Assembly: GCA_000585075.1 (NCBI GenBank)
Contig: JEMY01000009.1
Coordinates: forward strand, 1-35,241
Origin: Candidatus Accumulibacter regalis
Lineage (GTDB): Bacteria; Pseudomonadota; Gammaproteobacteria; Burkholderiales; Rhodocyclaceae
Length of the DNA: 35,241 bases
Direction: 5' to 3'
Both the position numbers and the translations under genes were made by a program. Below the pieces are notes generated by a model. That model searched no databases and was not told the origin of the DNA. It saw nothing but the letters and a program-made list of their open reading frames with translations. This document shows, piece after piece, positions 6,031 to 23,709 of this stretch. Every line of letters begins with the position of its first letter. Positions within the stretch are counted from its first letter, which is position 1.

Positions 6031-6103
6031 TTCATCCGCGCGGCTATGGCAACGCCTTGCTGCGGTGAGCGCGTTGGCTTTCCTGCGGCAGCCCGGGCAC
6101 GCC

Positions 6104-6138
6104 CTGGACTGCCGCGTCGCTGCGCTCCTCGCAGTGAC
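6104..6138 (+). repeat. Dispersed REP-like repeat, copy A
   Basis: This 35-bp unit begins CTGGACTGCCGCGTCGC and ends CTCGCAGTGAC. Identical copies occur at 23149-23183 (same orientation) and at 19659-19693 (opposite orientation), and close relatives occur at 6244-6280 and 6333-6369. All lie between genes. Such repeats are common in the genomes of many bacteria. Here this copy sits just upstream of a fic gene fragment. Confidence 0.75.
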
Positions 6139-6147
6139 GGGTTACGA

Positions 6148-9441: not shown

Positions 9442-10611
9442 ATGCACCGACCGCCGCCCGGCCAGTACGTCACGCTCTCGACGGCCGACGAGCCCTATCA
9501 GGCGTTCGTGCCGGCACCGCTGCCGCCGGTGCCACCGCTGGCGTGGACGCCGGCACTGCGGCGGCGCTTCGACGATGCGCTGGTCGCACTCGGGCGCCTC
9601 GACGCGATCACCGCGCTGCTGCCGAATGCCGCGCTGCTGCTCTACAGCTTCGTTCGCAAGGAGGCGGTGCTCTCGTCACAGATCGAGGGCACGCAATCCT
9701 CGCTGGCCGACCTGCTGCTCTTCGAGATCGACGAGCAGCCCGGCGTGCCGCTGGACGATGCGCACGAGGTCAGCCGCTATGTCGCGGCGCTGGAGCGCGG
9801 GCTGGCGCTGCTGCGCGGTGGCTTACCCCTCTGCAGCCGTCTGCTCTGCGAAATGCACGCGGTGCTGCTCGACCATCCGCGCGGGCGAGGCAAGGCGCCC
9901 GGCGAAATCCGCAGCTCGGCGGTATGGATCGGTGGCTCGCGGCCGGGCAATGCGGCTTTCGTGCCACCGCCGGTGGACGCGCTGCCGGCGTGCATCGCCG
10001 CTTTCGAGCGCTTTCTCAACGACGATCCGGAAGCCACTTCGCCGCTGCTCAAGGCGGCGCTGGCGCACGTGCAGTTCCAGACCATCCACCCCTTTCTCGA
10101 CGGCAACGGCCGCATCGGGCGGCTGCTGATCGTCCTGCAACTGGTCGCCGACGGCGTGTTGCGCGAGCCGCTGCTCTACCCCAGCCTGTTCTTCAAGACG
10201 CATCGTTCGCTGTATTACGAGCTGCTGAACGAGGTTCGCCTGCGCGGCGACTGGGAGCGCTGGTTGGATTTCTTTGCCGAGGGCGTGCAGGCCAGTGCCG
10301 CGCAGGCGCTGGTCACGGCGCACGCGCTGCTGGCGCTGGTGAACGCCGACCGTGACCGCATCGCGACGCTGGGCCGCGCCGCATCCTCCGCGTTGGTGGT
10401 GCACCAGGCGCTGCAGCGCCAGCCGTTGGCGACGTCGACAGCACTGGTCAAGGCCGCCGGGCTGACGGCGGCGACGGTGAACAAGTCGCTCGGCCATCTG
10501 AGCGCGCTGGGGATCGTCGCCGAACTGACGCAACGCCAGCGCGGGCGCGTCTTCAGCTACCGGCGCTACGTCGAGCTGCTGAACGCCGACCTGCCGCCCG
10601 CTGCGGCGTGA
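9442..10611 (+). CDS. Fic family protein with N-terminal inhibitory motif
   Basis: This encodes 389 residues. The Fic motif HPFLDGNGRIGR is at 216-227, with the catalytic His first. Upstream, SSQIEGT (about 79-85) fits the (S/T)xxxE(G/N) inhibitory helix of class II Fic enzymes. The C-terminal about 90 residues look like a winged helix-turn-helix. Fic proteins usually transfer AMP to a hydroxyl group of a target protein, and the inhibitory Glu restrains this. The gene sits inside the type I restriction operon, before hsdR, an arrangement seen in other bacteria. It may regulate the system or act as a toxin-like component. An N-terminal copy fragment lies at 6148-6231. Confidence 0.92.
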   Translation: MHRPPPGQYVTLSTADEPYQAFVPAPLPPVPPLAWTPALRRRFDDALVALGRLDAITALLPNAALLLYSFVRKEAVLSSQIEGTQSSLADLLLFEIDEQPGVPLDDAHEVSRYVAALERGLALLRGGLPLCSRLLCEMHAVLLDHPRGRGKAPGEIRSSAVWIGGSRPGNAAFVPPPVDALPACIAAFERFLNDDPEATSPLLKAALAHVQFQTIHPFLDGNGRIGRLLIVLQLVADGVLREPLLYPSLFFKTHRSLYYELLNEVRLRGDWERWLDFFAEGVQASAAQALVTAHALLALVNADRDRIATLGRAASSALVVHQALQRQPLATSTALVKAAGLTAATVNKSLGHLSALGIVAELTQRQRGRVFSYRRYVELLNADLPPAAA

Positions 10612-10632: not shown

Positions 10633-13600
10633 GTGAGCCTGTTCTCCTTCCTCGACCGCGAATGGCCGGCGGTATTCGACGCTGCCGCGCGCGCCGAGGC
10701 GGCGGTGCACACCGACCCGCGCAGCGCCTGTTTCTACGCCCGCCGCACGCTCGAACTGGCGGTCGCCTGGGCGTACAAGCACGACGCGGCGCTCAAGCTG
10801 CCGTACCAGAACCAGATCTCGGCGCTGATTCACGAGCCGAGCTTCAAGCAGGCGGCGGGCGAGGCGGTGTTCAGCAAGGCACGGGTGATCGTTGCTCTCG
10901 GCAACCGCGCGGTGCACGGCCCGCGCAGCGTCCCGACAGACGACGCGCTGGTCGCCGTGCGCGAGCTGTTCCACGTTGCTTACTGGCTGGCGCGTACCTA
11001 TGGACGCACGGCACGGCCGGCGCCGGGGCTGGTCTTCGACGCCGCTGCGCTGGCCAGGCCGACTCGCCGCTGCGCTGGCCAGGCCGACGGCCATGCCGGC
11101 GCCCGCCGCGGCGCAAAGCGCCGAAGCCCTGCAGCGGCTCGAATCCGAACTGCGCGAGCGCGACGAGAAGCTTGCACAAGTGCTCGCCGCTCAAGGCGCG
11201 CTCGACGACGAGCTGGCGCGGCTGCGCGCCGAAGTCGCTGCGGCGAAGCAGGCCGCGGCGGCCGAGCCCGACACGCACGACTATTCGGAAGCCGAGACCC
11301 GCCGCTATTTCATCGACCTGTTGTTGAAGGAGGCCGGCTGGCCACTGGAGCAGGAGCCAGGCCAGCCCGCTTCGCGCGAGTTCGAGGTCGCGGGCATGCC
11401 CAACGGGCAGGGAAAAGGTTTTGTCGACTACGTGCTGTGGGGCGACGACGGCAAGCCGCTGGGACTGGTCGAAGCCAAGCGCACGCGTCGCGATGCGCGC
11501 GTCGGCCAGCAACAGGCCCGGCTCTACGCCGACTGCCTGGAACGACAATTCGGCCAGCGCCCGCTGATCTACTACTCGAACGGCTACGAGCACTGGCTGT
11601 GGGACGACAGCACTTACCCGCCGCGCGCGGTGCAGGGCTTCTGCAAGAAAGCCGAGCTGGAACTGCTGATCCAGCGGCGCAGCACGCGCCAGCCGCTGGC
11701 TGTGGCGACCATCGACCGCGCCATCGCCGAACGCTTCTACCAGACACGCAGCATCCGGCGCGTCGCCGAGAGCTTCGAGCGCGACCACGAGCGCAAGGCG
11801 CTGCTGGTGATGGCCACCGGCGCCGGCAAGACGCGCACGGTGATCGCCCTCTGCGACCTGTTGATGCGCAGCAACTGGGTCAAGCGCGTGCTCTTCCTCG
11901 CCGACCGTGTGGCGCTGGTCAAGCAGGCGGTGGGCGCCTTCAAGCGCCACCTGCCCGACGCGTCACCGGTGAACCTGGTCAGCGACCGCTACGGAGAAGG
12001 GCGGGTGTTCGTTGCCACCTACCCGACGATGATGGGGCTGATCGACGAGATGGCGCTGGAGCGCCCGGGGCGTTCCGGGAGCGCAGGGGGCCGAGGGCGC
12101 GGAGGCGGCGGCCAGCGCCGCTTCGGCGTCGGGCATTTCGACCTGGTGATCATCGACGAGGCGCACCGCTCGGTCTTCCAGAAGTACCGCGCGATCTTCG
12201 ACTACTTCGACTCGCTGCTGGTCGGGCTGACGGCAACGCCCAAGGACGATGTGGATCGCAATACCTACGGCCTCTTCGACCTTGAAAACGGCGTGCCGAC
12301 CGACGCCTATGCGCTGGAAGAAGCGGTGCGCGACGGCTTCCTGGTGCCGCCGAAAGCGGTCTCGGTACCGCTCAAGTTCCAGCGCGGCGGGATCAACTAC
12401 GACGATCTTCCGGACGAAGAAAAAGAGCAGTGGGACGCCATCGAGTGGGACGACGACGGCATCGTTCCCAACCGCGTCGAGGCCGAGGCGGTCAACCAGT
12501 GGCTGTTCAACACCGACACGGTGGACAAGGTGCTGGCGCACCTGATGACGCGTGGCGTGAGCGTTGCCGGCGGCGACCGGCTGGGCAAGACGATCCTGTT
12601 TGCCAAGAATCAGGCGCACGCCGAGTTCATCGCCGAGCGCTTCAACGCCAACTACCCGCACTTCAAGGGCGAGTTCGCGCGCGTGATCACCTTCAGGACC
12701 GAGTACGCGCAGGACCTGATCGATCACTTCAGCATCAAGGAGCGGGCGCCGCATATCGCGATCTCGGTCGACATGCTCGACACCGGCATCGACGTGCCCG
12801 AAATCGTGAACCTGGTCTTCTTCAAGCTGGTGCGCTCGAAGACCAAGTTCTGGCAGATGCTCGGCCGCGGCACGCGCCTGTGCCCGGACCTGTTCGGACC
12901 GGGGCAGGACAAGCAATTCTTCCAGGTCTTCGACTACTGCCAGAACCTCGAATACTTCGGCCAGGACCCGGAAGCAACCGACGTTCCCGTGGTCGCGTCG
13001 CTGGGCAAGCGCCTGTTCACCACGCGTCTGCAGCTGATCGGCGCGCTCGACCAGCGGCTCGACGTCAGCGAACGCGGTGGCATCAAGGAGATCGCTCTGC
13101 CTTACGCCATGCCGGCGAACGAGGTCGAGCTGCGCCGCGACCTTGCCGAACTGCTGCACCGCGAGACGGCGGCGATGAACCTCGACAACTTCGTCGTGCG
13201 GCCCCGGCGCCGCATCGTCGAGCAGTATGCCAAAGCCGAGGCCTGGAAGACGCTGACTCCGGAGGCACGCTCGCAGCTCGCCGCCGAGGTGGCCGGCCTG
13301 CCTTCGGAAATGGCAGCGGAAGGCGAGGAAGCGCGGCGCTTCGACCTGCTGGTCCTCCGACTGCAACTGGCGCTACTGCGCGCCGAGCCGGCTTTCCAGC
13401 GTCTGCGCGAGCAGGTGATGGAGATCGCCGCGCTGCTTGAGGAAAAGGCCGCGATTCCGATGGTTCGCGAGCAGATGGTGCTGATCCTGGCGCTGCAGAC
13501 CGACGACTGGTGGCAGGACGTCACCGTCGCCATGCTCGAAGCGCTGCGCCGCAAGTTGCGCGAGCTCGTCCGGCTGATCGAAAAGCGCCAGCGCAAGCAG

Positions 13601-14146
13601 ATCTACACGGACTTCGACGACGAGATGGGCGACGAGAGCGAGGTCGCCTTGCCGGGCTTCACGGCGGGCACGGACTACGCGAAGTTCCGCGCCAAGGCGC
13701 AGGCCTTTCTGCGCGCGCACCAGGACCATGTGGCGATCCACAAGCTGCGCATGAACCGGCCACTGACCGTGGCCGACCTGGGTGAATTGGAACGGATGCT
13801 GGCCGAGAGCGGTGTGGGTGCGGTCAGGGATATCGAACGCGCCGCCAGCGAGTCGCACGGGCTGGGGCTCTTCGTGCGCTCGCTGCTCGGCATGGACCGT
13901 GAGGCCGCCAAGCAGGCGCTCGCCGGTTTCCTGGCTGGCAAGACGCTAGCCGCCAACCAGATCGAGTTCGTAAACCTGATCGTCAATCACCTCACCGAAC
14001 ACGGCGTGCTCGACGCCGCCTTGCTTTACGAGTCGCCGTTCATCGACATTACGCCGCGCGGTCCGGAGGCGCTGTTCAGCAGCGGCGAGGTCGATGACTT
14101 GATTGCCGTGCTCGCTGCCGTGCGGGATACGGCGGTGGCGGCGTGA
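10633..14146 (+). pseudogene. hsdR: Type I restriction endonuclease subunit HsdR, frame-broken by a 25-bp duplication
   Basis: The frame opened by the GTG at 10633 encodes an N-terminal DUF4145-like domain (about 1-120), then loses register at a tandem repeat at 11041-11088. The remaining protein continues in the next frame to 14146. Removing one 25-bp unit rejoins both parts into about 1162 residues. The rejoined protein has a coiled coil (about 155-200), a nuclease motif D...VEAKR (about 257-275), Walker A ATGAGKT (about 385), DEAH (about 499), LTATP, and a QMLGRGTR helicase motif VI, then an EcoEI-type C-terminus. HsdR translocates DNA and cuts it away from the site. As written the full protein is not made. 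Reinitiation at 11093 would give a shorter form lacking the N-domain, but no good ribosome-binding site is visible. A Gly/Arg-rich insert at 12062-12121 lies between helicase motifs. Confidence 0.88.
11041..11088 (+). repeat. hsdR: Tandem 23-bp direct repeat (25-bp period) inside hsdR
   Basis: Copies at 11041-11063 and 11066-11088 are identical and separated by TC. The 25-bp period is not a multiple of three. The upstream frame enters at 11041 on a codon boundary, and the downstream frame has its codon boundary at 11066. Deleting one period therefore gives an uninterrupted reading (ALARPTAMPAPAAA) across the join. It is a recent slippage duplication, a reversible switch, or an assembly error. 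Confidence 0.9.
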
Positions 14147-14238
14147 GAGGCGACCTGCGAACTGAAGCAGGCGGAGTGAACGCCTTTATCCATTTCTGAT
14201 AGAACTGTTGATCTGATCGCTGGCAGGGAGCCATCGCA

Positions 14239-17200
14239 ATGCCGACCAAGATATTCCTGGCCTCATCCTCCGAGTTGCTGGAGGAGCGCAAAGAGTTCGA
14301 GATTCTCGTCAATCGCAAGAACAAGCTTTGGCAGCCGCAGGGCGCTTTCGTCGAACTGATCGTGTGGGAGGACTTTCTCGACGCGCTATCCAGAACACGG
14401 CTGCAGGACGAATACAACAAGGCCATCCGCGATTGCGACATCTTTGTGATGCTGTTCAGCACCAAGGTCGGTCGCTACACCGCAGAGGAGTTCGAGACTG
14501 CTTTCGAGCAGTTCAAGGCGACTGGCAAGCCACACATCTTCACCTACTTCAAGACCGCAGCGATCGACCTGGGCAGCGTCAGTCAGGATGATCTGATGAG
14601 CTTGTGGGCCTTCCAGAAAAAGCTCGATGACCTGGGGCACTTCCGCACACCGTACAGGAATATCGGCGAGCTGAAGTTCGAGTTCAATCAACAACTGGAC
14701 AAGCTGGTGGCGAGCGGATTCATCGTTCTCAACTCCGGCCCGGGCGACGGCCCGCCACCGGACGAAGACTCCGCCGAGGCGAACTCGGTCATCGCCCTCT
14801 ACCTGCACGCGCTGGCGACCGATCTCGCCGGGCTGAAGCTGGGCGAAATCGACGCTTCCGCCGATCCGGCACGGCAGACGCCGCTGCAGCTCGCCGACAT
14901 CTACGTGCCGCTGGATACCACCCTGCAGATTGCGCAGGAGACGACGCTGGCGGAGTGGCTGGCACGCGCAGCCAGCCGCCAGCGTGACGACGTTCACCAA
15001 CAGCGCTCCGGGCAACGCGAAACGCGCCCGGTTTCCGCCCTCGAAGCGCTGGCCGCGCACCGCCAGCTGACGCTGCTCGGCAAGCCGGGCAGCGGCAAGA
15101 GCACCTTCGGCGCGAGCGTCCTGCTGGCGCTCGCCCAGGCCTGGCAGGGTCACCTCGAGGAACTCGCCAGCCTCGGTGACACCTGGACGCATGGCAAGCT
15201 GCTGCCGATCCGCGTCATTCTGCGCCGCTTCGCCGAGCAGCTACCCCCCGGCGACAAGCCGGCGCGTGCCAGCGAGCTGTGGGACTTCATTGCCCGCGAC
15301 CTCGACGCCGCTGGCTATGGCATGTCGCCGGAGACCATGAAATACGTGCAGCGCATCGCCCGCAAGCGAGGCGCGCTGATCCTCTTCGACGGCCTCGACG
15401 AGTGCGGCAACCGCGCCAGTCGCGAACGCGTGCTGGCTGCCGTCGATGAGCTGATGGGCAGCGCCGGGAAGGCCTGCCGCTTCGTGCTCTGCGCGCGGCC
15501 GTACGCGTGGCCCGGCGGCGCCGATCCGGCGCAGGGCGTATACGCTCTCGCCGATCTCGACGACGGGCAGATCGAGCGCTTCATTCGCGCCTGGTACGCG
15601 GCGCTGGTCACGCGCGGCTGGCGCTCGCCCGGCGACGCCGAACGCAAGATCGACGACCTGCTCGCCGCCCGGCAGCGTCCCGACCTGCTGCCGCTGGCGC
15701 GCAACCCGCTGCTGCTGACCTTGATGGCGACCTTGCATACCAACCGTGGCCGCCTGCCCGACGATCGCGCCGACCTCTACGAGGAGTCGGTCGAGTTGCT
15801 GATGCTGCGCTGGAACCGCCAGATCGGCGCCGACAAGGCGCTACTCGACGAGCTGGCCATTCCCGGCCTCAAGCTCTCCGACCTGCGCGAGGTGCTCGAA
15901 GAGGTGGCGTTCAAGGTGCACGCCGGGAACGTCGGCCGCGAGGGTACGGCGGATATCGGTGAGGATCGCCTGGTCCGCGCCTTCTGCCCGCTGCTCGGCA
16001 AGGACAGGAACAAGGCTGCCGTTGTCGTCGAGTACATCGAAAAGCGCGCCGGCCTGCTGATCGGGCAGGGCGAGAAGGACGGCGAGCGGCAGTTCACTTT
16101 TCCGCATCGCACTTTCCAGGAATTCCTCGCCGCCAGCTTTCTCGCGGCGCAGGGTGACTTCGCAGCGCAGTGCGCCGGCCTGGCGCGCGCCGCGCCGACA
16201 CACTGGCAGGTCGTGCTGCCGCTGGCTGCGCGACTGGCCAAGGCCGAGCGGGGCGCGAGTGCAGCTGACGAACTGGTCGGCGGAAAGTCGATCGTCGACT
16301 TCCGGAAGCGCGGGCGGCCGGAAGAAGCCGATTGGACCTGCGCGCTGCTTGCCGGAACGCAGTTGCAGGAGATCGGTCTCGGGGCGATCAACAAGAGCGC
16401 GCGCACGCAGGCGATTGCCGAGCGCGTGGCTGGCTGGCTCGCCGCGTCTCTGCCGGTACACCCGGACGATGGCGGCGCACCGAACCGGCAGCGCGCGCAA
16501 GCCGGTGATGTGCTGGCTGTGCTTGGCGATCTGCGTTTTGACCCCGAGCGCTTCTACCTGCCGGCCGACGAGATGCTCGGCTTCGTGCGCATTGCGGCGG
16601 ATTCCGAGTTCAGGATTGGCACGCGCAAGGCGGACGCGCAGCGGCTGGCGAAGATCGTCGGTAACGAAGTGGATAATGACGAAATCAATGACGAGCCAAC
16701 GCCGACGCCCGAGTTTCTTATTGCCCGCTATCCGGTCACCGTCGCTCAGTTCCGTGCTTTTGTCGAGGCGACACAATACGAGATCGGCGATGCTGACGCC
16801 TTGCGTGACGCGGCCAGCCGCCCGGTGCGCTGGGTGAGCTGGCACGAGGCGATCGCCTACTGTGATTGGCTGAACGACGAGCTCACCAGTTCGCCGCTCC
16901 TTCAGGACAGCGAACCGTCCCGTCTTGTACGCCAGCGCCGGTGGCAGGTTGCGCTGCCCAGCGAACTTGAGTGGGAGAAAGCGGCGCGTGGCGGGTTGCC
17001 GGATGCGGTCTTCTCATGGGGCAATGAGGTCGACCCGGCTCGCGCCAACTATGGCGACTCGGAGATTGGCGATACGTCTGCTGTCGGTTGTTTTCCAGCC
17101 AGCGACTTCGGGCTGCACGACATGATCGGCAACGTATACGAATGGACGCGTAGCCTCTGGGGAACGGACTGGCAGAAGCCCGACTTCGGCTATCCGTACC

Positions 17201-17385
17201 GCTTCGACGACGGCAAACGTGAGGCACTCGACGCTAGGAACGACATCCTGCGGGTCGTTCGCGGCGGCTCGTGGTACGACGCCCGTTACGTCGCGCGCTG
17301 CGCCTCCCGCAGCGGGAACGTTCCCGGCGGCCGTAGCAACGGCCTCGGCTTTCGGGTGGTGTTGCGTTCGTCCCCTGAGGCGTAG
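14239..17385 (+). CDS. DGR target 1: TIR-like / NACHT / FGE-sulfatase (C-type lectin fold) receptor-like protein
   Basis: This encodes 1048 residues. About 1-160 form a TIR-like alpha/beta domain (KIFLASSSE first strand; EEFETAF around 83-89, where TIR enzymes carry their catalytic Glu). About 265-560 form a NACHT/STAND NTPase with Walker A GKPGSGKST (281-289) and Walker B LILFDGLDEC (about 378-387). A helical region follows. About 770-1048 is an FGE-sulfatase domain (PSELEWEKAARGG, MIGNVYEWTRS, VVRGGSW). Residues about 1005-1045 are encoded by variable repeat 1 and carry 18 TR-adenine substitutions. By family knowledge DGRs diversify such C-terminal folds to change ligand binding. An immune-type sensor with a TIR-like effector is inferred. 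The start has AGGGAG 9 bases upstream. A close paralogue is at 19876-22983. Confidence 0.88.
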   Translation: MPTKIFLASSSELLEERKEFEILVNRKNKLWQPQGAFVELIVWEDFLDALSRTRLQDEYNKAIRDCDIFVMLFSTKVGRYTAEEFETAFEQFKATGKPHIFTYFKTAAIDLGSVSQDDLMSLWAFQKKLDDLGHFRTPYRNIGELKFEFNQQLDKLVASGFIVLNSGPGDGPPPDEDSAEANSVIALYLHALATDLAGLKLGEIDASADPARQTPLQLADIYVPLDTTLQIAQETTLAEWLARAASRQRDDVHQQRSGQRETRPVSALEALAAHRQLTLLGKPGSGKSTFGASVLLALAQAWQGHLEELASLGDTWTHGKLLPIRVILRRFAEQLPPGDKPARASELWDFIARDLDAAGYGMSPETMKYVQRIARKRGALILFDGLDECGNRASRERVLAAVDELMGSAGKACRFVLCARPYAWPGGADPAQGVYALADLDDGQIERFIRAWYAALVTRGWRSPGDAERKIDDLLAARQRPDLLPLARNPLLLTLMATLHTNRGRLPDDRADLYEESVELLMLRWNRQIGADKALLDELAIPGLKLSDLREVLEEVAFKVHAGNVGREGTADIGEDRLVRAFCPLLGKDRNKAAVVVEYIEKRAGLLIGQGEKDGERQFTFPHRTFQEFLAASFLAAQGDFAAQCAGLARAAPTHWQVVLPLAARLAKAERGASAADELVGGKSIVDFRKRGRPEEADWTCALLAGTQLQEIGLGAINKSARTQAIAERVAGWLAASLPVHPDDGGAPNRQRAQAGDVLAVLGDLRFDPERFYLPADEMLGFVRIAADSEFRIGTRKADAQRLAKIVGNEVDNDEINDEPTPTPEFLIARYPVTVAQFRAFVEATQYEIGDADALRDAASRPVRWVSWHEAIAYCDWLNDELTSSPLLQDSEPSRLVRQRRWQVALPSELEWEKAARGGLPDAVFSWGNEVDPARANYGDSEIGDTSAVGCFPASDFGLHDMIGNVYEWTRSLWGTDWQKPDFGYPYRFDDGKREALDARNDILRVVRGGSWYDARYVARCASRSGNVPGGRSNGLGFRVVLRSSPEA
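17253..17374 (+). repeat. DGR variable repeat 1 (VR1)
   Basis: This 122-bp segment at the 3' end of target 1 aligns without gaps to the template repeat at 17525-17646. There are 18 differences, and every one is at a template adenine (changes to G, T and C are all seen). The last 27 bases, ending at 17374, are identical to the TR and would serve as the initiation-of-mutagenic-homing region. The variable codons fall between GGSW and GFRVV of the FGE domain, and the stop codon follows 8 bases after the repeat. Confidence 0.95.
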
Positions 17386-17442
17386 CCCTGGCCTCTGTTC
17401 CTCTGAACTCTGGGCCTCTGGTGCGCTGACTCTGGAGGGGGT

Positions 17443-17462
17443 GCGGGGGAGACTTCCCCCGC
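17443..17462 (+). other. Hairpin 69 bp after VR1
   Basis: A perfect 8-bp stem with a 4-base loop is present: GCGGGGGA-GACT-TCCCCCGC. An identical hairpin follows VR2 at 23042-23061, within about 95 bp of nearly identical flank, but none follows the TR. DGRs can use a hairpin or cruciform downstream of VR to help target homing, usually much closer to the VR than here. A transcription terminator is the alternative, although no T-run follows directly. Confidence 0.6.
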
Positions 17463-17488
17463 CGCGTCGCTTTTCGCTATCATGCACG

Positions 17489-17510
17489 GGCCGGGTGGCG
17501 ACATCCGGCC
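17489..17510 (+). other. Short hairpin just upstream of the TR
   Basis: GGCCGGGT and ATCCGGCC flank a 6-base loop, giving an 8-bp stem with one G.T pair that ends 14 bases before the template repeat. It could be part of the template RNA or its 5' boundary. A TATCAT word at 17478-17483 just upstream is a possible -10 for the template RNA, with no clear -35. Confidence 0.3.
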
Positions 17511-17524
17511 AGGCAGTCTGGAAA

Positions 17525-17646
17525 GGTCGTTCGCGGCGGCTCGTGGAACAACAACCGTAACAACGCGCGCTGCGCCTACCGCAACAGGAACGATCCCGAC
17601 AACCGTAACAACAACATCGGCTTTCGGGTGGTGTTGCGTTCGTCCC
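17525..17646 (+). repeat. DGR template repeat (TR)
   Basis: This is a 122-bp non-coding copy of the VR, very rich in AAC triplets (11 AAC codons in the VR reading frame) and with 27 adenines between the invariant TGG and the GGC of the GGCTTTCGGG block. In the VR frame it would read [25 protein letters not shown] in its centre. No adenine substitution in this region can create a stop codon. It is on the same strand as both targets and the reverse transcriptase. Its RNA is the template that the RT copies with errors at adenines. One TR serves both VRs. Confidence 0.95.
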
Positions 17647-17920
17647 ACGTCCTTCTCACCCTTTTTCTGGTTCCGTCGCCAGCCGGCGGGACGGCGTAGC
17701 GGTGCACCCGCGCCGACTATGCTCCGGAAATGCGGGCCGATCCGCGCGAGCGGTTTTGCCCGCCGAGGCGAAGGAAGAAGAACAGCGCCAGGCAGGTCTG
17801 GTCCGCGCGCGTGCCGTGAGGCAGGGCGACATCAGGGGCATCGCCCGCGCCGGGCAGATAGTCAAGCCAGGGCACGGCCAGGCCATCGCGCCCGCCGTCG
17901 CCCGCCCCTCCCGACTATGC
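17647..17920 (+). other. Spacer between the TR and the avd gene
   Basis: No convincing gene is present in these 274 bp. Open frames here are high-GC noise with no family features. A 12-bp direct repeat (CCGACTATGCTC) occurs at 17713-17724 and 17911-17922. In other DGRs the template RNA extends past the TR and needs downstream sequence for RT and Avd binding. This spacer is the natural candidate for that part of the RNA. Confidence 0.4.
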
Positions 17921-18325
17921 TCATCCAGCTTCCGCGTCGCCTCCGGGTGTGCCACCGGTGGCCCGGGAAGGCACGCCGGATCGGGTCTGCTTGAGCCAGC
18001 CGCCCAGCAGGCGGCCGATTTCGGCGACCATGCGGCTGACGTGCTCGTACTGGCCGCTGCTCAGCCAGTCCCACTGCCGTGACAGGCGCAGGTAGAGGCG
18101 CAGCTTGTTGAGCCGTGCGTCGGCGGCCTGCAAATGCTCCAGTCGCTGCCCGCCACTGCGCGCATTGGCTTCGAAGATCGCCTCCTGAAAATCCAGCGCC
18201 GCGCCCTGCAGGCGCTGCGTAATGACGAAGCGCTGGCTCTTCGGGAAACGCTCGCATTGTGGCAGCAGCCAGCTCAGCAGGTCGTAAGTGTGGGTGAAGA
18301 TCACCAGCTCTTTGGTCGGTGGCAT
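17921..18325 (-). CDS. avd: Avd-type DGR accessory variability determinant
   Basis: This encodes 134 residues starting MPPTKELVIF, with GAGGA 9 bases before the ATG. The sequence is almost entirely helical and matches the Avd four-helix-bundle pattern: a short N-terminal segment with TYDLLSWLLPQCERFPKSQRF, then a helix with FQEAIFEAN, then LRLYLRLSRQWDWLSSGQYEHVS, and a last helix with EIGRLLGGWLKQ. Avd forms a basic pentameric barrel that binds the RT and the template RNA and is needed for cDNA synthesis. It is on the opposite strand to the RT and the TR and runs toward the TR, whereas the best-studied DGRs have avd, TR and RT on one strand. A longer reading from 18445 is possible but lacks family support. 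Confidence 0.85.
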   Translation of the reverse strand: MPPTKELVIFTHTYDLLSWLLPQCERFPKSQRFVITQRLQGAALDFQEAIFEANARSGGQRLEHLQAADARLNKLRLYLRLSRQWDWLSSGQYEHVSRMVAEIGRLLGGWLKQTRSGVPSRATGGTPGGDAEAG

Positions 18326-18489
18326 GGGCGATAATCCTCGAAGGGCTTGATCGGGAAGTCGAAGTAGGTGTGGCACGAGCGCCGGGTGCCGGGCGCGACA
18401 AGCGAAGTGCATGGCACCCGTCACCGATGGGCTTGGCCGGAGCAATCAGGCGACTCGCCTGGTAGCGCGAAATTCAGGATGGGCGACCA
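18326..18489. promoter_or_regulatory. Divergent intergenic region between avd and the RT gene
   Basis: These 164 bp separate the divergent avd (minus) and RT (plus) starts and should hold promoters for both. I saw no strong -35/-10 pair. The RT start is a GTG at 18490 preceded by AGGA at 18476-18479. An ATG at 18479 is out of frame. Confidence 0.3.
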
Positions 18490-19551
18490 GTGGCATCTCT
18501 CTTCGCAGCGATCACCGACTGGGACAACCTCTGGCGCGCCTATCGGCTGGCTGCACGCGGCAAGCGCCGCAAGGATAGCGCGGCGGCTTTCGAGCAGGTG
18601 CTTGCCGACCGGCTGATCGCCTTGCAGAGCGCGCTGCGCACGCGAAGCTATCGCCCCGGCGCCTATCGGCATTTCTTCATTCACGAACCAAAGCGGCGCA
18701 AGATCAGCGCCGCGCCGTTTGTCGACCGCGTCGTCCATCATGCCCTGTGCAATGTCATCGAGCCGATCTGCGAGGCGGGCTTCATTGCCCACAGCTACGC
18801 CAATCGCCGTGGCAAGGGCACGCATCGCGCGGTTGATCGCTTGCAGGAGCTGGCGCGTCGTCATCGCTATGTGCTGCGTGCCGACATCGTCCAGCATTTT
18901 CCATCGCTGGACCACTCGCTGCTGCGCGCCAAGCTTGCGCGCCTGATCGAGGACGAGGAGGTGCTGTGGTTGGTCGACAGCATCCTTGCCAGTGGCGTCG
19001 GCGCGCTCACGGCCGAGTACACGCCCGTCTATTTTCCGGGCGACGACCTGCTCGCCGCTTGTCGTCCACGCGGCTTGCCGATCGGCAATCTGACCTCGCA
19101 GTTCTGGTCGAACGTCTTCCTCAATGATTTCGACTGGTTCGTCCAGCGTGAGCTGGGTTGTGGCGCCTATGTGCGCTACGTGGACGATTTCGCCCTGTTC
19201 GGCGACAGCAAGTCCAGGCTCGCCGCGTGGCGGGAGGCGATCATCGTGCGCTTGGCGCGCGAGCGCTTGACGATCCACGAGGCACAGACGCAGGTGCTGC
19301 CGACGCGCTGTGGCATTCCCTGGCTGGGATTCGTCGTCTATCCCGCGTGCCGCTTGCTCAAACGGCGTAACGCCGTGAATTTCACCCGTCGCCTGGCTCG
19401 TAACCTGGACGATTACCAGGCCGGCCAGCTTTCGTTCGGCGAACTCGACGCCAGTGTGCAGGGCTGGATCAACCACGTGCGCTACGCCGATACCTGGGGC
19501 TTGCGCGAGCACGTGTTTGCCAGCCATCCGATTCCGAAACGGAGCGCCTGA
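18490..19551 (+). CDS. DGR reverse transcriptase
   Basis: This encodes 353 residues from a GTG start. Reverse transcriptase motifs are in order: basic N-terminal region ([19 protein letters not shown], about 69-87), motif [15 protein letters not shown] with catalytic Asp132, [10 protein letters not shown] at about 195-204 (the IGxxxSQ form typical of DGR and related RTs), and YVDD at 230-233 with the two catalytic aspartates. A thumb region follows, ending in [12 protein letters not shown]. It lacks the intron maturase and endonuclease domains of group II intron RTs. With Avd it copies the template RNA with errors opposite adenines. The TR, two VRs and avd beside it confirm the DGR assignment. 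Confidence 0.95.
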
Positions 19552-19875
19552 CGACGGGCCTGGCGCCAACACGTTGGCCTCTGTCGCCCAGCTTCGTTGA
19601 ACTATCGTAGTTGCTCTTGGCTGCCCATGCCGCCGTCGTCACCCGCAAACCGCATGCCGTCACTGCGAGGAGCGCAGCGACGCGGCAGTCCAGCGCCACC
19701 TTCTGACTTGTCTCTCCGGGACTGAACTCGTGCGTCACGGATGCGGTTTGCGAGGCATCGAAACGCTTCGCGGAAGGCAAGCGCAGCAAGCGCGGCCAAA
19801 CAGACGGACTTGCCGCTCTTTCTCGTGGCCGCTTGGCTATACTGTCCCGCGAATCGCCTCAACGGAACCGTCACG
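19552..19875 (+). other. Intergenic region upstream of DGR target 2
   Basis: These 324 bp contain one REP-like repeat (19659-19693) and no gene I can support. The reading frame of target 2 is open upstream to 19741, but the extra 45 residues have no counterpart in target 1, which begins directly with the TIR-like strand. A weak TATACT at about 19837 might act as a -10. Confidence 0.35.
19659..19693 (-). repeat. Dispersed REP-like repeat, copy B (inverted orientation)
   Basis: This is the exact reverse complement of the 35-bp repeats at 6104-6138 and 23149-23183. Target 2 is therefore bracketed by oppositely oriented copies (19659 and 23149), which are potential recombination points for duplicating or inverting the target gene. 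Confidence 0.75.
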
Positions 19876-22800
19876 ATGATCACGATAAAGCTTTTCCTTG
19901 CCTCGTCCTCCGAATTCTGCGAGGAGCGGAAAGAGTTTGAGCGCTTCATCGGCCGCAAGAACAAGCAGTTGCTTCCTCGGGGTGGCTTCATCGAGGTGGT
20001 CCTCTGGGAAGATTTCCTGGATGCCATGTCGAAGACCCGGCTGCAGAACGAGTACAACCAGGCGATTCGCGAATGCGACCTCTTCGTGATGTTGTTCGGG
20101 AGCAAGGTCGGTCGCTACACCGACGAAGAGTTCAAGACCGCGTACGCGCAATTCACGGCCACCGGCATGCCGTTGATCTTCACGTATTTCAAGGATGTGC
20201 AGATCAGTTCGGTCAGCGCCAACCGGGCCGGTCTGGCAAGTCTGTGGGCCTTCGAAGACAAGCTCAGGGCGCTGGAGCACTTCCCGACCGTCTACACGAA
20301 CACCGCCGAGCTGGAAAACCACTTCGGTGAGCAACTGGAGAAGCTGGTCGCAGGCGGCCTGATCGAAGTCGCTTCGGGCAAGTCGTACCAGTCACCCAGC
20401 GGCGATGCTCGCCCGCCTGCGGGCAAAACCTACCCGGTCGACGGCTATCTGCGCTGGCTGCGTAGCCATACCGAGTGCATCGAGCTGCGCGGCATCGAAC
20501 GTGCGGGTGGCGCACGGGTGGTGTCCTTGCCGCTGGAGGCGGCCTATGTGCCGCTGCGTGCCCGGCCGATCCCGCGGCCTGGCGACGCGCAGGAGCGGGA
20601 GGCAACGCAGCGCAGCTCCCGCAGCCGCGCCAACGCTGGCGAGAAGACAGCACCCGACGAGCGTGTGGGTGACAACGATATCGACCTCAACCAGGTGCTC
20701 GGTCTCGGCAATCGACTGGTGATCATCGGCGGGCCAGGCTCGGGGAAGACGACGGTACTGCTGCACATGGCCTGGGCGCTGGCGTCTTCGCTGCTCACCG
20801 GGCAGGCGGAGCCGGCAAGGTCGCGCCTTGGTCTGGCGGTGGCTGCCAGCGAAATTCCCTTGCCGATCTTCGTGCCGCTCGCGTCGTTCGCCCGCTTCCG
20901 CCGCCAACTGCCGGCCAGCGCGCCGGCACGCGAGAGAACGCTGGCGCACTTCATCTCGTATCACCTGATCAGGAAGCAGGCCGACGTCGATCTGCCCGAC
21001 GATTTCTTCGTACAGCTGCTCAGGGATGGGCGGCCAGTGATCCTGCTGCTCGACGGGCTCGATGAGGTCGCCAATGAAGAAGAGCGCGCCGAAGTGCGCG
21101 CGTCGGTCGAAGACCTGGTCAGTGGCCAGGCGCGCATGCGCGTCGTCGTCACCTGCCGCACCATCGCCTACCGCAGCGGTGGCACCGCACTCGGCGCGAA
21201 GTTCCGTGAGATTGCCGTGCAGCCGCTCGGCTTCGAGCAACACGTCGCGCCGATGGTGCGGCAGGCGTACGCCTGTATCCACCCGCAGGACGCCGATTTG
21301 CGCAACGAGCGGGTGCAGGACTTGCTGAGCGGCATTGCGAGGCTCGAAGACGAGCGCCGCGCGCGCCTCGGCAGTGATGCGCACGTTCTGGTCGACAGTC
21401 CGCTGATGGTGCGCCTGCTGTTGATCGTGCATGTGAGCAACCGCACGTTGCCGGACGGGCGCGCCGAACTCTTCGACAAGGCGATCAGCGCCTTGCTGCA
21501 GGTCGACTACGGACGCGAGCAGGCCGACATCCGCGAGCTGGCCAGCGACTGGAAAGTGTTTCGCGAAATGGCCCAGCATCTCGCCTTTCACATGCACCGG
21601 CACGGGCGTGACCAGGGGCGCGAGATCGGTGAGCGGGCCTTGCGGAAAGTCTTGTGCGAGGAGGCCGAATTCCGGCCGCACGTCGATCGTTTCCTGAGCC
21701 ACGCCCGCCAGCGCGGCAGTGTGCTGGAGGAGCGCCAGGAGGCCTATCGCTTCATTCATCTGGCTTTTCAGGAATTCCTGGTGGCGCGCTACCTGCGCGA
21801 AGTCATCGGCGGCGAGGCCCGTGAAGCGATCCTTTCCGTTCTCGGCGACCGCCTCGACGATCCGTGGTGGCGCGAGCCGATTCTGCTCCTGGCTGGCTAC
21901 TGGGCGAGCAATGCCGCCAAGCCGGCGCGGGAATTTCTCGGCGAGCTGGGGAGGGCGGGTGGCAATCCGAACGTGCAGTTCTCGGCTGCCGAACTGGCGG
22001 GAACGGCGGCGCTGGAATGGCGCGAGCGCGGCGAAGCGACGCGTGCCGATTGCGCGCGGAGGATCGTTGATCTGTTGGCCGACGCGTCGACGCTGCTCGG
22101 CGCCGGGCCCGTTGTCCGCGCGCGTGCGGGAGACGTGCTGTCGGCGCTGGGCGACCCGCGCTTCGACGCGCAGCGCTTCTGGCTGCCGGCCGACGAGATG
22201 CTCGGTTTTGTGCGCATGCCGGCTGACCCCGAGTTCCGGATCGGTACGCGCAAGGCGGATGCGCAGCGGCTGGCGAAGACCGTCGGCGGCGAAGTGGGAA
22301 AGGACGAAATCAATGACGCGCCCACGCCAACACCGGAGTTCCTTATCGCGCGCTACCCGGTCACCGTCGCCCAATTCCGCGCCTTTGTCGAGGCGGCGCA
22401 CTACGAGATCGGCGATGCCGACGCCTTGCGTGACCCGGACAGCCGACCGGTTCGGAGGGTGAGCTGGCACGAGGCCATCGCGTACTGCGACTGGCTCAAC
22501 GAAGCGCTTGCCGTGTCGCCGTTGCTTGAAGGCACCAAGGCTGCCGGGCTCGTGCGCCAGCGCCAGTGGCGGGTTGCCCTGCCCAGCGAGCTTGAGTGGG
22601 AAAAAGCCGCTCGTGGCGGACTGCGGGATGCGGTCTTCTCCTGGGGCAACGACGCCGACCCGGCTCGGGCCAACTATGGTGACTCGGGGATCGACGATAC
22701 CTCTGTTGTCGGCTGTTTTTTGGCCAACGATTTCGGCCTTTACGACATGATCGGCAACGTGTTGGAATGGACGCGCAGCACTTACCAGCCGTATCCCTAT

Positions 22801-22983
22801 CAACCTGACGATGGTTGCGAGGATCTGCAAGCCGCTGCCAACGTTGAAAGGGTCGTTCGCGGCGGCTCGTGGTTCAGCAACCGTAGCGGCGCGCGCTGCG
22901 CCTCCCGCAGCAGGAGCGGTCCCGACGTCCGTCTCAGCGGCATCGGCTTTCGGGTGGTGTTGCGTTCGTCCCCTGAGGCGTAG
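19876..22983 (+). CDS. DGR target 2: TIR-like / NACHT / FGE-sulfatase (C-type lectin fold) receptor-like protein
   Basis: This encodes 1035 residues from the ATG at 19876, chosen because MITIKLFLASSSE aligns with MPTKIFLASSSE of target 1. It has the same order: a TIR-like domain (about 1-160), NACHT with Walker A GGPGSGKTT (285-293) and Walker B VILLLDGLDEVA (about 386-397), a helical region, and FGE-sulfatase (about 770-1035) with VR2 at about 992-1032. The N-terminal and C-terminal domains are strongly similar to target 1, but the central NTPase is clearly divergent, so the two are mosaics. Immediately upstream are the RT and a REP-like repeat. A receptor-like role with a diversified sensor is inferred. 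The 17 VR2 changes are all at template adenines. Confidence 0.88.
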   Translation: MITIKLFLASSSEFCEERKEFERFIGRKNKQLLPRGGFIEVVLWEDFLDAMSKTRLQNEYNQAIRECDLFVMLFGSKVGRYTDEEFKTAYAQFTATGMPLIFTYFKDVQISSVSANRAGLASLWAFEDKLRALEHFPTVYTNTAELENHFGEQLEKLVAGGLIEVASGKSYQSPSGDARPPAGKTYPVDGYLRWLRSHTECIELRGIERAGGARVVSLPLEAAYVPLRARPIPRPGDAQEREATQRSSRSRANAGEKTAPDERVGDNDIDLNQVLGLGNRLVIIGGPGSGKTTVLLHMAWALASSLLTGQAEPARSRLGLAVAASEIPLPIFVPLASFARFRRQLPASAPARERTLAHFISYHLIRKQADVDLPDDFFVQLLRDGRPVILLLDGLDEVANEEERAEVRASVEDLVSGQARMRVVVTCRTIAYRSGGTALGAKFREIAVQPLGFEQHVAPMVRQAYACIHPQDADLRNERVQDLLSGIARLEDERRARLGSDAHVLVDSPLMVRLLLIVHVSNRTLPDGRAELFDKAISALLQVDYGREQADIRELASDWKVFREMAQHLAFHMHRHGRDQGREIGERALRKVLCEEAEFRPHVDRFLSHARQRGSVLEERQEAYRFIHLAFQEFLVARYLREVIGGEAREAILSVLGDRLDDPWWREPILLLAGYWASNAAKPAREFLGELGRAGGNPNVQFSAAELAGTAALEWRERGEATRADCARRIVDLLADASTLLGAGPVVRARAGDVLSALGDPRFDAQRFWLPADEMLGFVRMPADPEFRIGTRKADAQRLAKTVGGEVGKDEINDAPTPTPEFLIARYPVTVAQFRAFVEAAHYEIGDADALRDPDSRPVRRVSWHEAIAYCDWLNEALAVSPLLEGTKAAGLVRQRQWRVALPSELEWEKAARGGLRDAVFSWGNDADPARANYGDSGIDDTSVVGCFLANDFGLYDMIGNVLEWTRSTYQPYPYQPDDGCEDLQAAANVERVVRGGSWFSNRSGARCASRSRSGPDVRLSGIGFRVVLRSSPEA
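22851..22972 (+). repeat. DGR variable repeat 2 (VR2)
   Basis: This 122-bp segment at the 3' end of target 2 aligns without gaps to the TR 5.3 kb upstream, with 17 differences, all at template adenines. It differs from VR1 at most variable codons but shares three non-template codons with it (TCC, AGC and a GGC near the 3' end). Its 3' end is identical to the TR and VR1, as expected for the homing initiation site. Confidence 0.95.
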
Positions 22984-23041
22984 CCCTGTCCTCTGCTTCC
23001 TCTGAACTCTGGGACTCTGGTGCGCTGACTCTGGAGGGGGT

Positions 23042-23061
23042 GCGGGGGAGACTTCCCCCGC
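23042..23061 (+). other. Hairpin 69 bp after VR2
   Basis: This has the same 8-bp stem and GACT loop as at 17443-17462, within a nearly identical 3' flank. The conserved spacing after both VRs, and its absence after the TR, suggest either a homing-related structure or a shared terminator copied along with the target gene. Confidence 0.6.
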
Positions 23062-23148
23062 CTCGCCGGCTTCGAGTGATCTACGCGTTGGTTGGCAAGG
23101 TCACTGCGGTCAAGAGTGCTGGTGTTCCTGCAGCAGCCGTGGCAGGCC

Positions 23149-23183
23149 CTGGACTGCCGCGTCGCTGCGCTCCTCGCAGTGAC
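23149..23183 (+). repeat. Dispersed REP-like repeat, copy C
   Basis: This is identical over 35 bp to 6104-6138, and the similarity extends about 25 bp upstream (CCTGCRGCAGCC and GCAGGCC/GCACGCC words). It lies between DGR target 2 and the thioesterase gene. Confidence 0.75.
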
Positions 23184-23232
23184 GGCTTGGCGCGCCGGGG
23201 AAATCCCCGCGGCGTCACTTTTCGCTGGCGGC

Positions 23233-23709
23233 CTATTGCTGTCCTGCCGCGGAATCGGGCAGCCGCACGGCGATCATGTGCCCGCGCGCGCAGACCTCGC
23301 CGTGGGCGCTCAACGACAGGCTAACGGTGACCTTGCGCGGCTTGACCTCGACGATTTCGCCTCGGACTTCCAGTTCGCCGTCTATCGGCGTCGGGCGGAG
23401 GTAATCGACCTTGAGTGAGGCGGTGACAAAGCGCATGGGTGGGGCGCTGCCCATTTCGCGGCCTTCTGCTTTGCACGCGGCGGCGGCGGCGGAACCTGCG
23501 CCGTGACAATCGAGCAGCGAGGCGATGAGGCCGCCATAGACGTTTCCGGGAACGCCGCCGGTGTGGTAGGGCTGGGGTGTGAAGCGTGCAACGGTCGTAT
23601 CGCCGTCCCAGTAGCTCTTCAAATGGTGGCCGTGTTCGTTGTTCTTGCCGCATCCGTAACAATGCGCGAAATCATCGGGATAACAATCCTGAAAAGCCGT
23701 GCTGGGCAT
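23233..23709 (-). CDS. PaaI-family (hotdog fold) thioesterase
   Basis: This encodes 158 residues. The N-terminus has a Cys/His pair motif (CYGCGKNN) found in one branch of hotdog thioesterases. It is followed by GGVPGNVYGGLIASLLDCHGAGSA (about 50-74), where Gly and Asp/His residues line the acyl-CoA site, and by the C-terminal strands SLKVDYLRPTP and GELEVRGEIVEV. The family hydrolyses acyl-CoA thioesters and the substrate cannot be read from the sequence. It lies 63 bp downstream of the next minus-strand gene and may share its transcript. Confidence 0.8.
   Translation of the reverse strand: MPSTAFQDCYPDDFAHCYGCGKNNEHGHHLKSYWDGDTTVARFTPQPYHTGGVPGNVYGGLIASLLDCHGAGSAAAAACKAEGREMGSAPPMRFVTASLKVDYLRPTPIDGELEVRGEIVEVKPRKVTVSLSLSAHGEVCARGHMIAVRLPDSAAGQQ

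Follow-up and report, generated by a model that had tools for sequence, protein, structure and literature searches.

We found that positions 14239-22983 of the DNA analysed here hold a complete diversity-generating retroelement (DGR) with two targets. The DNA, called the window below, is a stretch of 35,241 nucleotides from contig JEMY01000009.1 of Candidatus Accumulibacter regalis, a bacterium of a kind found in sewage treatment. The identification is close to certain. As claimed in an earlier note made from the letters alone, a reverse transcriptase (RT), an Avd-type helper, one template repeat (TR), two variable repeats (VRs) at the 3' ends of the targets, and two large NACHT targets are all located there, and each part can be seen directly in the sequence. 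The features are as follows (FGE, formylglycine-generating enzyme; aa, amino acids; cDNA, complementary DNA).

14239-17385, + strand: target 1, with a putative DUF4062/TIR-like N-domain, NACHT, and an FGE/C-type-lectin C-domain.
17253-17374, + strand: VR1, at the 3' end of target 1, with adenine-restricted differences from TR.
17443-17462, + strand: hairpin after VR1, with an 8-bp GC-rich stem and the 4-nt loop GACT, 68 nt past the VR end.
17525-17646, + strand: TR, from a repeat search, a DGR repeat finder and a genome search.
17659-17870, + strand: structured RNA (model R1) 3' of TR, a putative cDNA-priming or RT-recruiting spacer.
17921-18325, - strand: avd, 134 aa, antisense to TR and RT; NF033474 100 bits (cut-off 80), PF22296 75.3 bits (cut-off 40).
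18490-19551, + strand: DGR reverse transcriptase, 353 aa, GTG start, with GNLTSQ (residue 199) and YVDD (residue 230).
19876-22983, + strand: target 2, with the architecture of target 1, to which it is 47% identical.
22851-22972, + strand: VR2, at the 3' end of target 2, with adenine-restricted differences from TR.
23042-23061, + strand: hairpin after VR2, identical in its letters to the VR1 hairpin, 69 nt past the VR end.

The differences between the repeats are directly visible and fall at TR adenines. Over a 122-bp core, VR1 differs from TR at 18/27 adenines and VR2 at 17/27, with 0/95 other positions changed in either; the two VRs differ from each other at 17/27 TR-adenine sites and again at 0/95 others. 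The finder that defines these 122-bp boundaries lets TR adenines alone vary freely. A general repeat search also gave three copies of one element in the window, and a longer 131-bp repeat alignment has a few non-adenine mismatches because that stretch runs past the repeat ends. Chance repeats and plain segmental duplication were ruled out because the VR mismatches are confined to TR adenines. All 27 TR adenines are at codon position 1 or 2, mutation cannot turn any of the TR codons into a stop, and about 6.6e15 protein variants per VR can be computed from the TR codons. When the whole genome (4.6 Mb, 85 contigs) was searched with TR, the only matches were TR, VR1 and VR2, and no further VRs were found in those contigs.

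Relatives were taken from an RT scan of genome contigs (80 of 93 kept) and are led by Candidatus Accumulibacter together with many metagenome-assembled genomes (MAGs) of Anaerolineae/Chloroflexi. Altogether we examined 98 RT-bearing loci, including the window, further genome stretches and one viral contig; some may be duplicate DNA. Among 89 distinct TR/VR pairs from the relatives and the window locus, 1512/2558 TR adenines and 60/8675 other positions had changed, counts on which it bears that the finder itself selects for few non-adenine changes. VRs were on opposite strands in 27 of the 32 loci with at least two VR calls; they share one strand in the window, in Ca. A. appositus (locus L042) and Ca. 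A. meliphilus (L043), and in L073 and L086.

An RT phylogeny, suggested in the earlier note as a check, agreed with the assignment. In a tree of 86 rows, 83 DGR-side rows including BPP-1 split from the three other RTs of the genome with support of 100 in the Shimodaira-Hasegawa-like approximate likelihood ratio test (SH-aLRT), with long branches that leave the exact place of BPP-1 unsure. These three other RT matches are 30-33% identical and two were tested, both passing the cut-off for group II; the window RT, the one RT of DGR kind in the genome, scored 128.6 bits of 300 with the group II model, below the cut-off. The window RT matches RVT_1, and the helper passed the cut-offs of both NCBIfam DivGenRetAVD and Pfam bAvd. 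The window RT shares a clade with a Nitrosomonas RT (L094), and the cyanobacterial RTs L141 and L142 are near but outside. These positions, which bear on membership of clade 5 (discussed below), are those in the tree built here. An RT match at E <= 1e-40 was present in 20/297 genomes of the family. No close phage relative of the RT, at >=60% identity, was present among 161 phage records; one IMG/VR contig carries an RT that is 61% identical.

Comparison between Accumulibacter species points to past activity. Between the window and Ca. A. meliphilus, the orthologous VR2 copies differ at 23/27 TR-adenine sites and at 5/95 others. The two TRs disagree at five non-adenine sites, and there every VR has the base of its own TR (20/20 cells). 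Over nine locus pairs this held in 260/260 cells, a figure that is partly built in because the finder admits few non-adenine mismatches, whereas the concerted change between the window and Ca. A. meliphilus is directly visible. These comparisons indicate that the element rewrote VR2 after the two species separated, and so that it has acted in the past between species.

A structured RNA appears to be encoded within the 275 nt that separate TR from the avd stop. The first ~210 nt align across ten loci, and a covariance model trained on ten loci (R1) matched 47/98 loci at E <= 1e-3, namely the ten training loci, the identical L042, and 36/87 others. Of these 36, eight have no TR call on that strand; in the remaining 28/28 the match is on the TR strand and within -36 to +47 nt of the TR end. 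Covariation can be seen directly in a MAFFT alignment of 19 loci made independently of the model, where double compensatory changes occur in 31/45 pairs. In the alignment of 67 matches (E up to 1), which is fitted to the model and so leans towards the structure, 93.2% of cells pair compared with 69.8% after shuffling (0/500 as high). Over the whole window Rfam gave no match at gathering score, and over 17480-18000 none at E <= 5. R1 gave nothing below E 0.01 in the comparison DGRs L140-L145 and no match in BPP-1 (best E 0.61).

An alternative is that the conserved element is not part of the TR RNA but works as DNA or as the 3' region of the mRNA of the antisense avd. It sits between the avd stop and TR, and a read-through avd transcript would include it. 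However, several near-invariant G-U pairs exist on the TR-sense strand only, the opposite strand giving A-C; all 28 of the matches with a called TR abut the TR 3' end; and passages of a paper on BPP-1 describe a structured spacer that is likewise 3' of TR (PMC12875486). We regard this alternative as very unlikely. The covarying RNA offers a handle for finding TRs across the whole DGR lineage and for asking how cellular DGRs prime cDNA.

In the 297 family genomes, searched with stricter filters that lose weak matches, eight matched R1 at E <= 0.001; an RT-less match in G136 has E 6e-4. R1 matches lacking an RT could have been a sign of another role, and this was rejected from the three loci opened: in L174 and L175, two strong matches away from a listed RT, the DGR cassette is decayed or incomplete, and L176 has only an FGE match. 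In L174 (genome G018) TR, VR and fragments of RT and Avd remain, TR and VR agree at all non-adenine positions over 97 bp, and the remnant may be served in trans by a full-length RT elsewhere in G018. L175 keeps Avd and a target, with no RT match. Two extra R1 matches lie upstream of target 1 in L043 (4192-4329 and 4783-4922), where no TR was called.

The orientation of avd marks a clade of these elements. Avd is within 4 kb of RT in 77/98 loci, antisense only in 63, sense only in 13 and both in one (L095), with none in 21. The antisense layout fills one RT clade of 62 rows (SH-aLRT 100), with 57/57 called rows antisense and five without a call. Outside this clade 18 rows, six of them set by hand, are sense and only L095 is antisense, and two changes of orientation in all are needed on the tree. 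TR was called on the RT strand in 41 of the 57 antisense rows, leaving 16 without such a call, and the order by midpoints is TR - avd - RT in 39 of the 41; the two exceptions are L049 and L053, where long open frames blur midpoints. By annotation avd is sense in the DGRs of BPP-1, Anabaena, Prosthecochloris, Ideonella and an Aeromonas phage, and it is assumed to be so in Fischerella. The literature passages covered by our search hold no description of an antisense avd layout, and the main text of Roux 2021 (PMC8144416) has 0 occurrences of avd, accessory, NACHT, orientation or opposite. With this layout the TR and avd transcripts run towards each other, and one may ask how TR RNA and Avd are then co-ordinated. 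In L095 (9437-11408) an RT from the sense-avd side and a TR-3' RNA occur with an antisense avd before the RT and a sense avd after it, perhaps the result of an RT swap.

Both VRs are followed at 68-69 nt by the hairpin GCGGGGGA-GACT-TCCCCCGC, directly visible within a 72-bp repeat common to the 3' ends of the targets. None was present after TR at this locus, as scored on the identical L042, from which the window hairpins were scored as well. Among the relatives, not counting L042 (and so not the window, to which it is identical), a hairpin lying within 120 nt and having a stem of >=8 and a loop of 3-4 followed 52/86 VRs (shuffles mean 0.7, max 3) and 5/76 TR entries (shuffles mean 0.9, max 3). 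With a looser screen (stem >= 7, loop 3-6), which counts TRs once per pair, it followed 65/89 VRs and 19/89 TR entries. According to passages of Guo et al. (2011) (PMC3240598), the hairpin is required in BPP-1, and phage DGR hairpins have GRNA loops 4-34 bp from the VR. The hairpin downstream of the VR expected of a DGR is thus present here, but its loop, GACT, and its distance depart from those of the phage elements.

Both targets match NACHT and FGE-sulfatase by Pfam and have intact Walker motifs (target 1, GKPGSGKS at 281 and LILFDGLDE at 380; target 2, GGPGSGKT at 285 and ILLLDGLDE at 389). The longest listed open reading frame (ORF) of target 2 starts at 19741, but when its N-terminus is aligned with relatives the ATG at 19876 is the favoured start. 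The FGE/C-type-lectin C-domain is aa 813-1041 of target 1. Its structure model has a mean predicted local distance difference test score (pLDDT) of 94, and Foldseek matched it to formylglycine-generating enzymes and to the Treponema denticola DGR protein TvpA. Pfam, model and Foldseek agree in placing the VR in the C-type-lectin fold.

From sequence matches, both targets are predicted to be TIR-like/DUF4062 - NACHT - FGE-lectin proteins, with an N-domain (aa ~1-165 of target 1) whose assignment is below cut-off. At E 0.01, in window copies and relatives, TIR_2 and NPHP3 matched 6/6 and DUF4062 5/6 N-domains, all below cut-off. The N-domain also matches the PADLOC candidate defence protein PDC-S60 (E 2.3e-12 and 7e-5), and in its model (pLDDT 75.5, six sequences) beta strands and alpha helices alternate in an order that fits TIR. 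After the third strand Glu83 is present in 22/22 and Glu84 in 21/22 distinct homologues, and these may be equivalent to the published catalytic Glu. A DUF4062-like module occurs in 14/28 genomes of the genus Accumulibacter (E <= 1e-15). In L044 (9484-10533) and L046 (13991-15034) the ORF that holds the DUF4062-like domain has no NACHT or FGE match and lies near a NACHT-FGE target; the separate ORF would be the product of gene fission or a frameshift. The antiphage NACHT protein EruA of NCBIfam gave a partial match (46.9 bits, cut-off 1000).

The earlier note held that DGRs with NTPase targets are far less studied than phage systems. This needs qualifying, as passages of Dore et al. (2024) (PMC10907252) already describe the class: they propose DGR-varied STAND-lectin antigen sensors, commonly paired, name Accumulibacter as a host, and assign the DGRs of multicellular bacteria with paired STAND and C-type-lectin targets to clade 5 (notably 5D). 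A categorically new kind of element is therefore ruled out. The window DGR is like those of clade 5 in its two NACHT/STAND targets with FGE/C-type-lectin domains, a pairing of STAND NTPase and lectin confirmed by Pfam, in its host, and in its putative TIR-like N-domain, since TIR N-domains are mentioned for some members. What is added to the class is a candidate executioner domain, antisense avd as a clade marker, a covarying RNA 3' of TR, and evidence, at the level of species, for adenine-targeted rewriting; the main text of Dore et al. has 0 occurrences of DUF4062, avd, antisense, opposite and hairpin. Compared with BPP-1, the window shares TR and VR, Avd, RT, the post-VR hairpin with its 8-bp stem and 4-nt loop, and a spacer RNA 3' of TR; BPP-1 differs in that its avd is sense and upstream of TR, its target is a tail protein, and it has no R1 match.

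A May 2026 preprint (PMC13174449) reports, in the passages available, that DUF4062 domains are TIR-like NADases, including a bacterial antiphage system, and that DUF4062 adjoins NACHT in human proteins. The likeness to these NADases (bacterial Swarozyc, human TEP1 and NPHP3) lies in weak DUF4062, TIR_2 and NPHP3 matches and in DUF4062 beside NACHT as in TEP1 and NPHP3. In contrast, Swarozyc is described there as portal-activated, whereas here the DGR-varied lectin is the presumed sensor and the matches are below cut-off. The main text of the preprint has 0 occurrences of 'retroelement', and our literature search found no paper with both 'diversity-generating retroelement' and 'DUF4062'. Avs and other bacterial NACHT proteins have the same effector - STAND - C-terminal sensor order; they differ in that no Avs-named model matches here and in that the sensor here would be rewritten by a retroelement. 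For other conflict systems, domains of FGE type that are linked to DGRs are described in passages of Kaur et al. (2020) (PMC7159879).

We think it fairly probable that this DGR belongs to a lineage common in multicellular or aggregate-forming bacteria and diversifies NLR-like NADase receptors for phage defence. The immune mechanism is our best guess and not a result. A single transcript would carry TR and, immediately 3' of it, the ~210-nt structured RNA, which may recruit RT-Avd and prime cDNA synthesis by analogy with the BPP-1 spacer; in the passages available, cDNA priming has been worked out mainly for BPP-1 (PMC12875486). The RT would misread template adenines, and the mutated cDNA, directed by the identical 3' end and the post-VR hairpin, would take the place of VR1 or VR2. 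The VRs would thereby supply the variable end of the FGE-type C-type-lectin domain at the C-terminus of the two NLR-like proteins. Once a ligand binds, the NACHT ATPase would be released and would oligomerise, activating the N-terminal TIR-like/DUF4062 domain, which would deplete NAD+ and stop the infected cell. To a fuller version we give a little less than an even chance: a distinct DGR lineage, in MAGs labelled as several phyla, with a TR RNA bearing a ~210-nt non-Rfam 3' structure and an antisense avd between this RNA and RT, which in Accumulibacter arms NADase-NACHT receptors whose lectin sensors are rewritten within the lifetime of the lineage, and so forms a bacterial adaptive immune receptor of NLR type. 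The element gives the bacterial 'adaptive NLR' that has been proposed a concrete form open to testing, since a candidate executioner (TIR-like/DUF4062), a sensor surface and the writing parts are all specified.

The DGR could also be real and its sensors serve a role other than phage defence, in kin or cell-cell recognition or in regulation within Accumulibacter microcolonies. C-type-lectin VRs are able to bind varied ligands. In addition, Accumulibacter forms dense microcolonies according to passages of Dore et al. (PMC10907252). Against such a role, the N-domain is similar to TIR/DUF4062 and to a candidate defence protein of PADLOC, the NACHT Walker motifs are intact, and restriction-modification (R-M) and Fic genes adjoin. 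We consider it rather unlikely, and keep phage defence as the preferred reading.

Several results weigh against phage defence by an active element as we propose it. TR, VR1 and VR2 are identical in the window and Ca. A. appositus (L042), in a near-identical block of ~11.5 kb (window 12069-23574) that spans both VRs, and no diversification is therefore visible since these copies separated. The N-domain is below the curated Pfam cut-offs, with best scores in the window of 22.6 bits for DUF4062 (cut-off 24.7) and 26.1 for TIR_2 (cut-off 28). Foldseek matches to its model were poor and mostly small GTPases, with no TIR among the 50 listed and one nucleoside 2'-deoxyribosyltransferase at rank 45; the assignment thus draws on sequence matches. 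A sequence search of the PDB gave a best E of 0.72, to ribosome-associated proteins, and no Avs-named PADLOC model matched in the window at E <= 0.001. The fold of the window RNA by itself is just slightly better than that of shuffled sequences (z -1.1), so the case for structure is made by covariation. R1 was found in 37/62 rows of the antisense clade and not detected in 25, where it is therefore diverged, cut off or missing. Present activity and immune function are, moreover, inferred from genome sequence.

The block shared with L042 also bears on whether the cassette is a fossil, formerly active and now inactive, that moved between species by recombination with fixed VRs. The identical repeats would fit this, as would the decayed cassettes of other family genomes (L174 with only an RT fragment, L175 with Avd and a target but without RT). 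However, the window differs from L042 over 12830-23574 by nine mismatches and no gap, so that identical VRs mean little elapsed time rather than inactivity; RT, avd, both targets, the RNA and the hairpins all look intact in the window; and VR2 appears rewritten since the split from Ca. A. meliphilus. A fossil is unlikely in our view. Positions 12069-12753 are identical in L042 and the stretch between is N there; beyond 23574 identity falls to ~88% over 6 kb. Either the block was exchanged recently, at one and the same chromosomal site, or assembled DNA is common to the MAGs. All nine mismatches cluster in 30 bp of target 1 (14560-14589).

The surroundings only partly bear out the 'defence island' of the earlier note. 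HsdM, HsdS, Fic and HsdR are upstream of the DGR, so a type I R-M locus and Fic do adjoin it, but two near relatives lack the room for HsdM-HsdS and the right flank consists of cytochrome-oxidase and other housekeeping genes. Fic and SapC keep their order in Ca. A. appositus and in Ca. A. meliphilus; the SapC-Fic gap is 3.4 kb in the window and about 1.5 kb and 0.7 kb in these two near relatives. The R-M locus is not a fixed partner of the DGR, because the gap in the relatives is too short for HsdM-HsdS. Elsewhere in those genomes HsdM-HsdS gave only short, distant matches (40 candidates scored of 210 and 219), and HsdR is partly present in both. The Fic between HsdS and HsdR (9442-10611) is SoFic-like and is kept in Ca. 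A. meliphilus and Ca. A. appositus. Conjugation genes are nearby, as had been noted: TrbC and TraN of an F-type type IV secretion system are at the left edge of the window. A short dispersed repeat at about 6230-6480 matches dozens of places in the genomes of L042 and L043. Finally, 45-bp inverted repeats that are 96% alike (19653-19697, + strand, and 23145-23189, - strand) flank target 2; the genome has further copies of this element at 6101-6140 and in nine more places.

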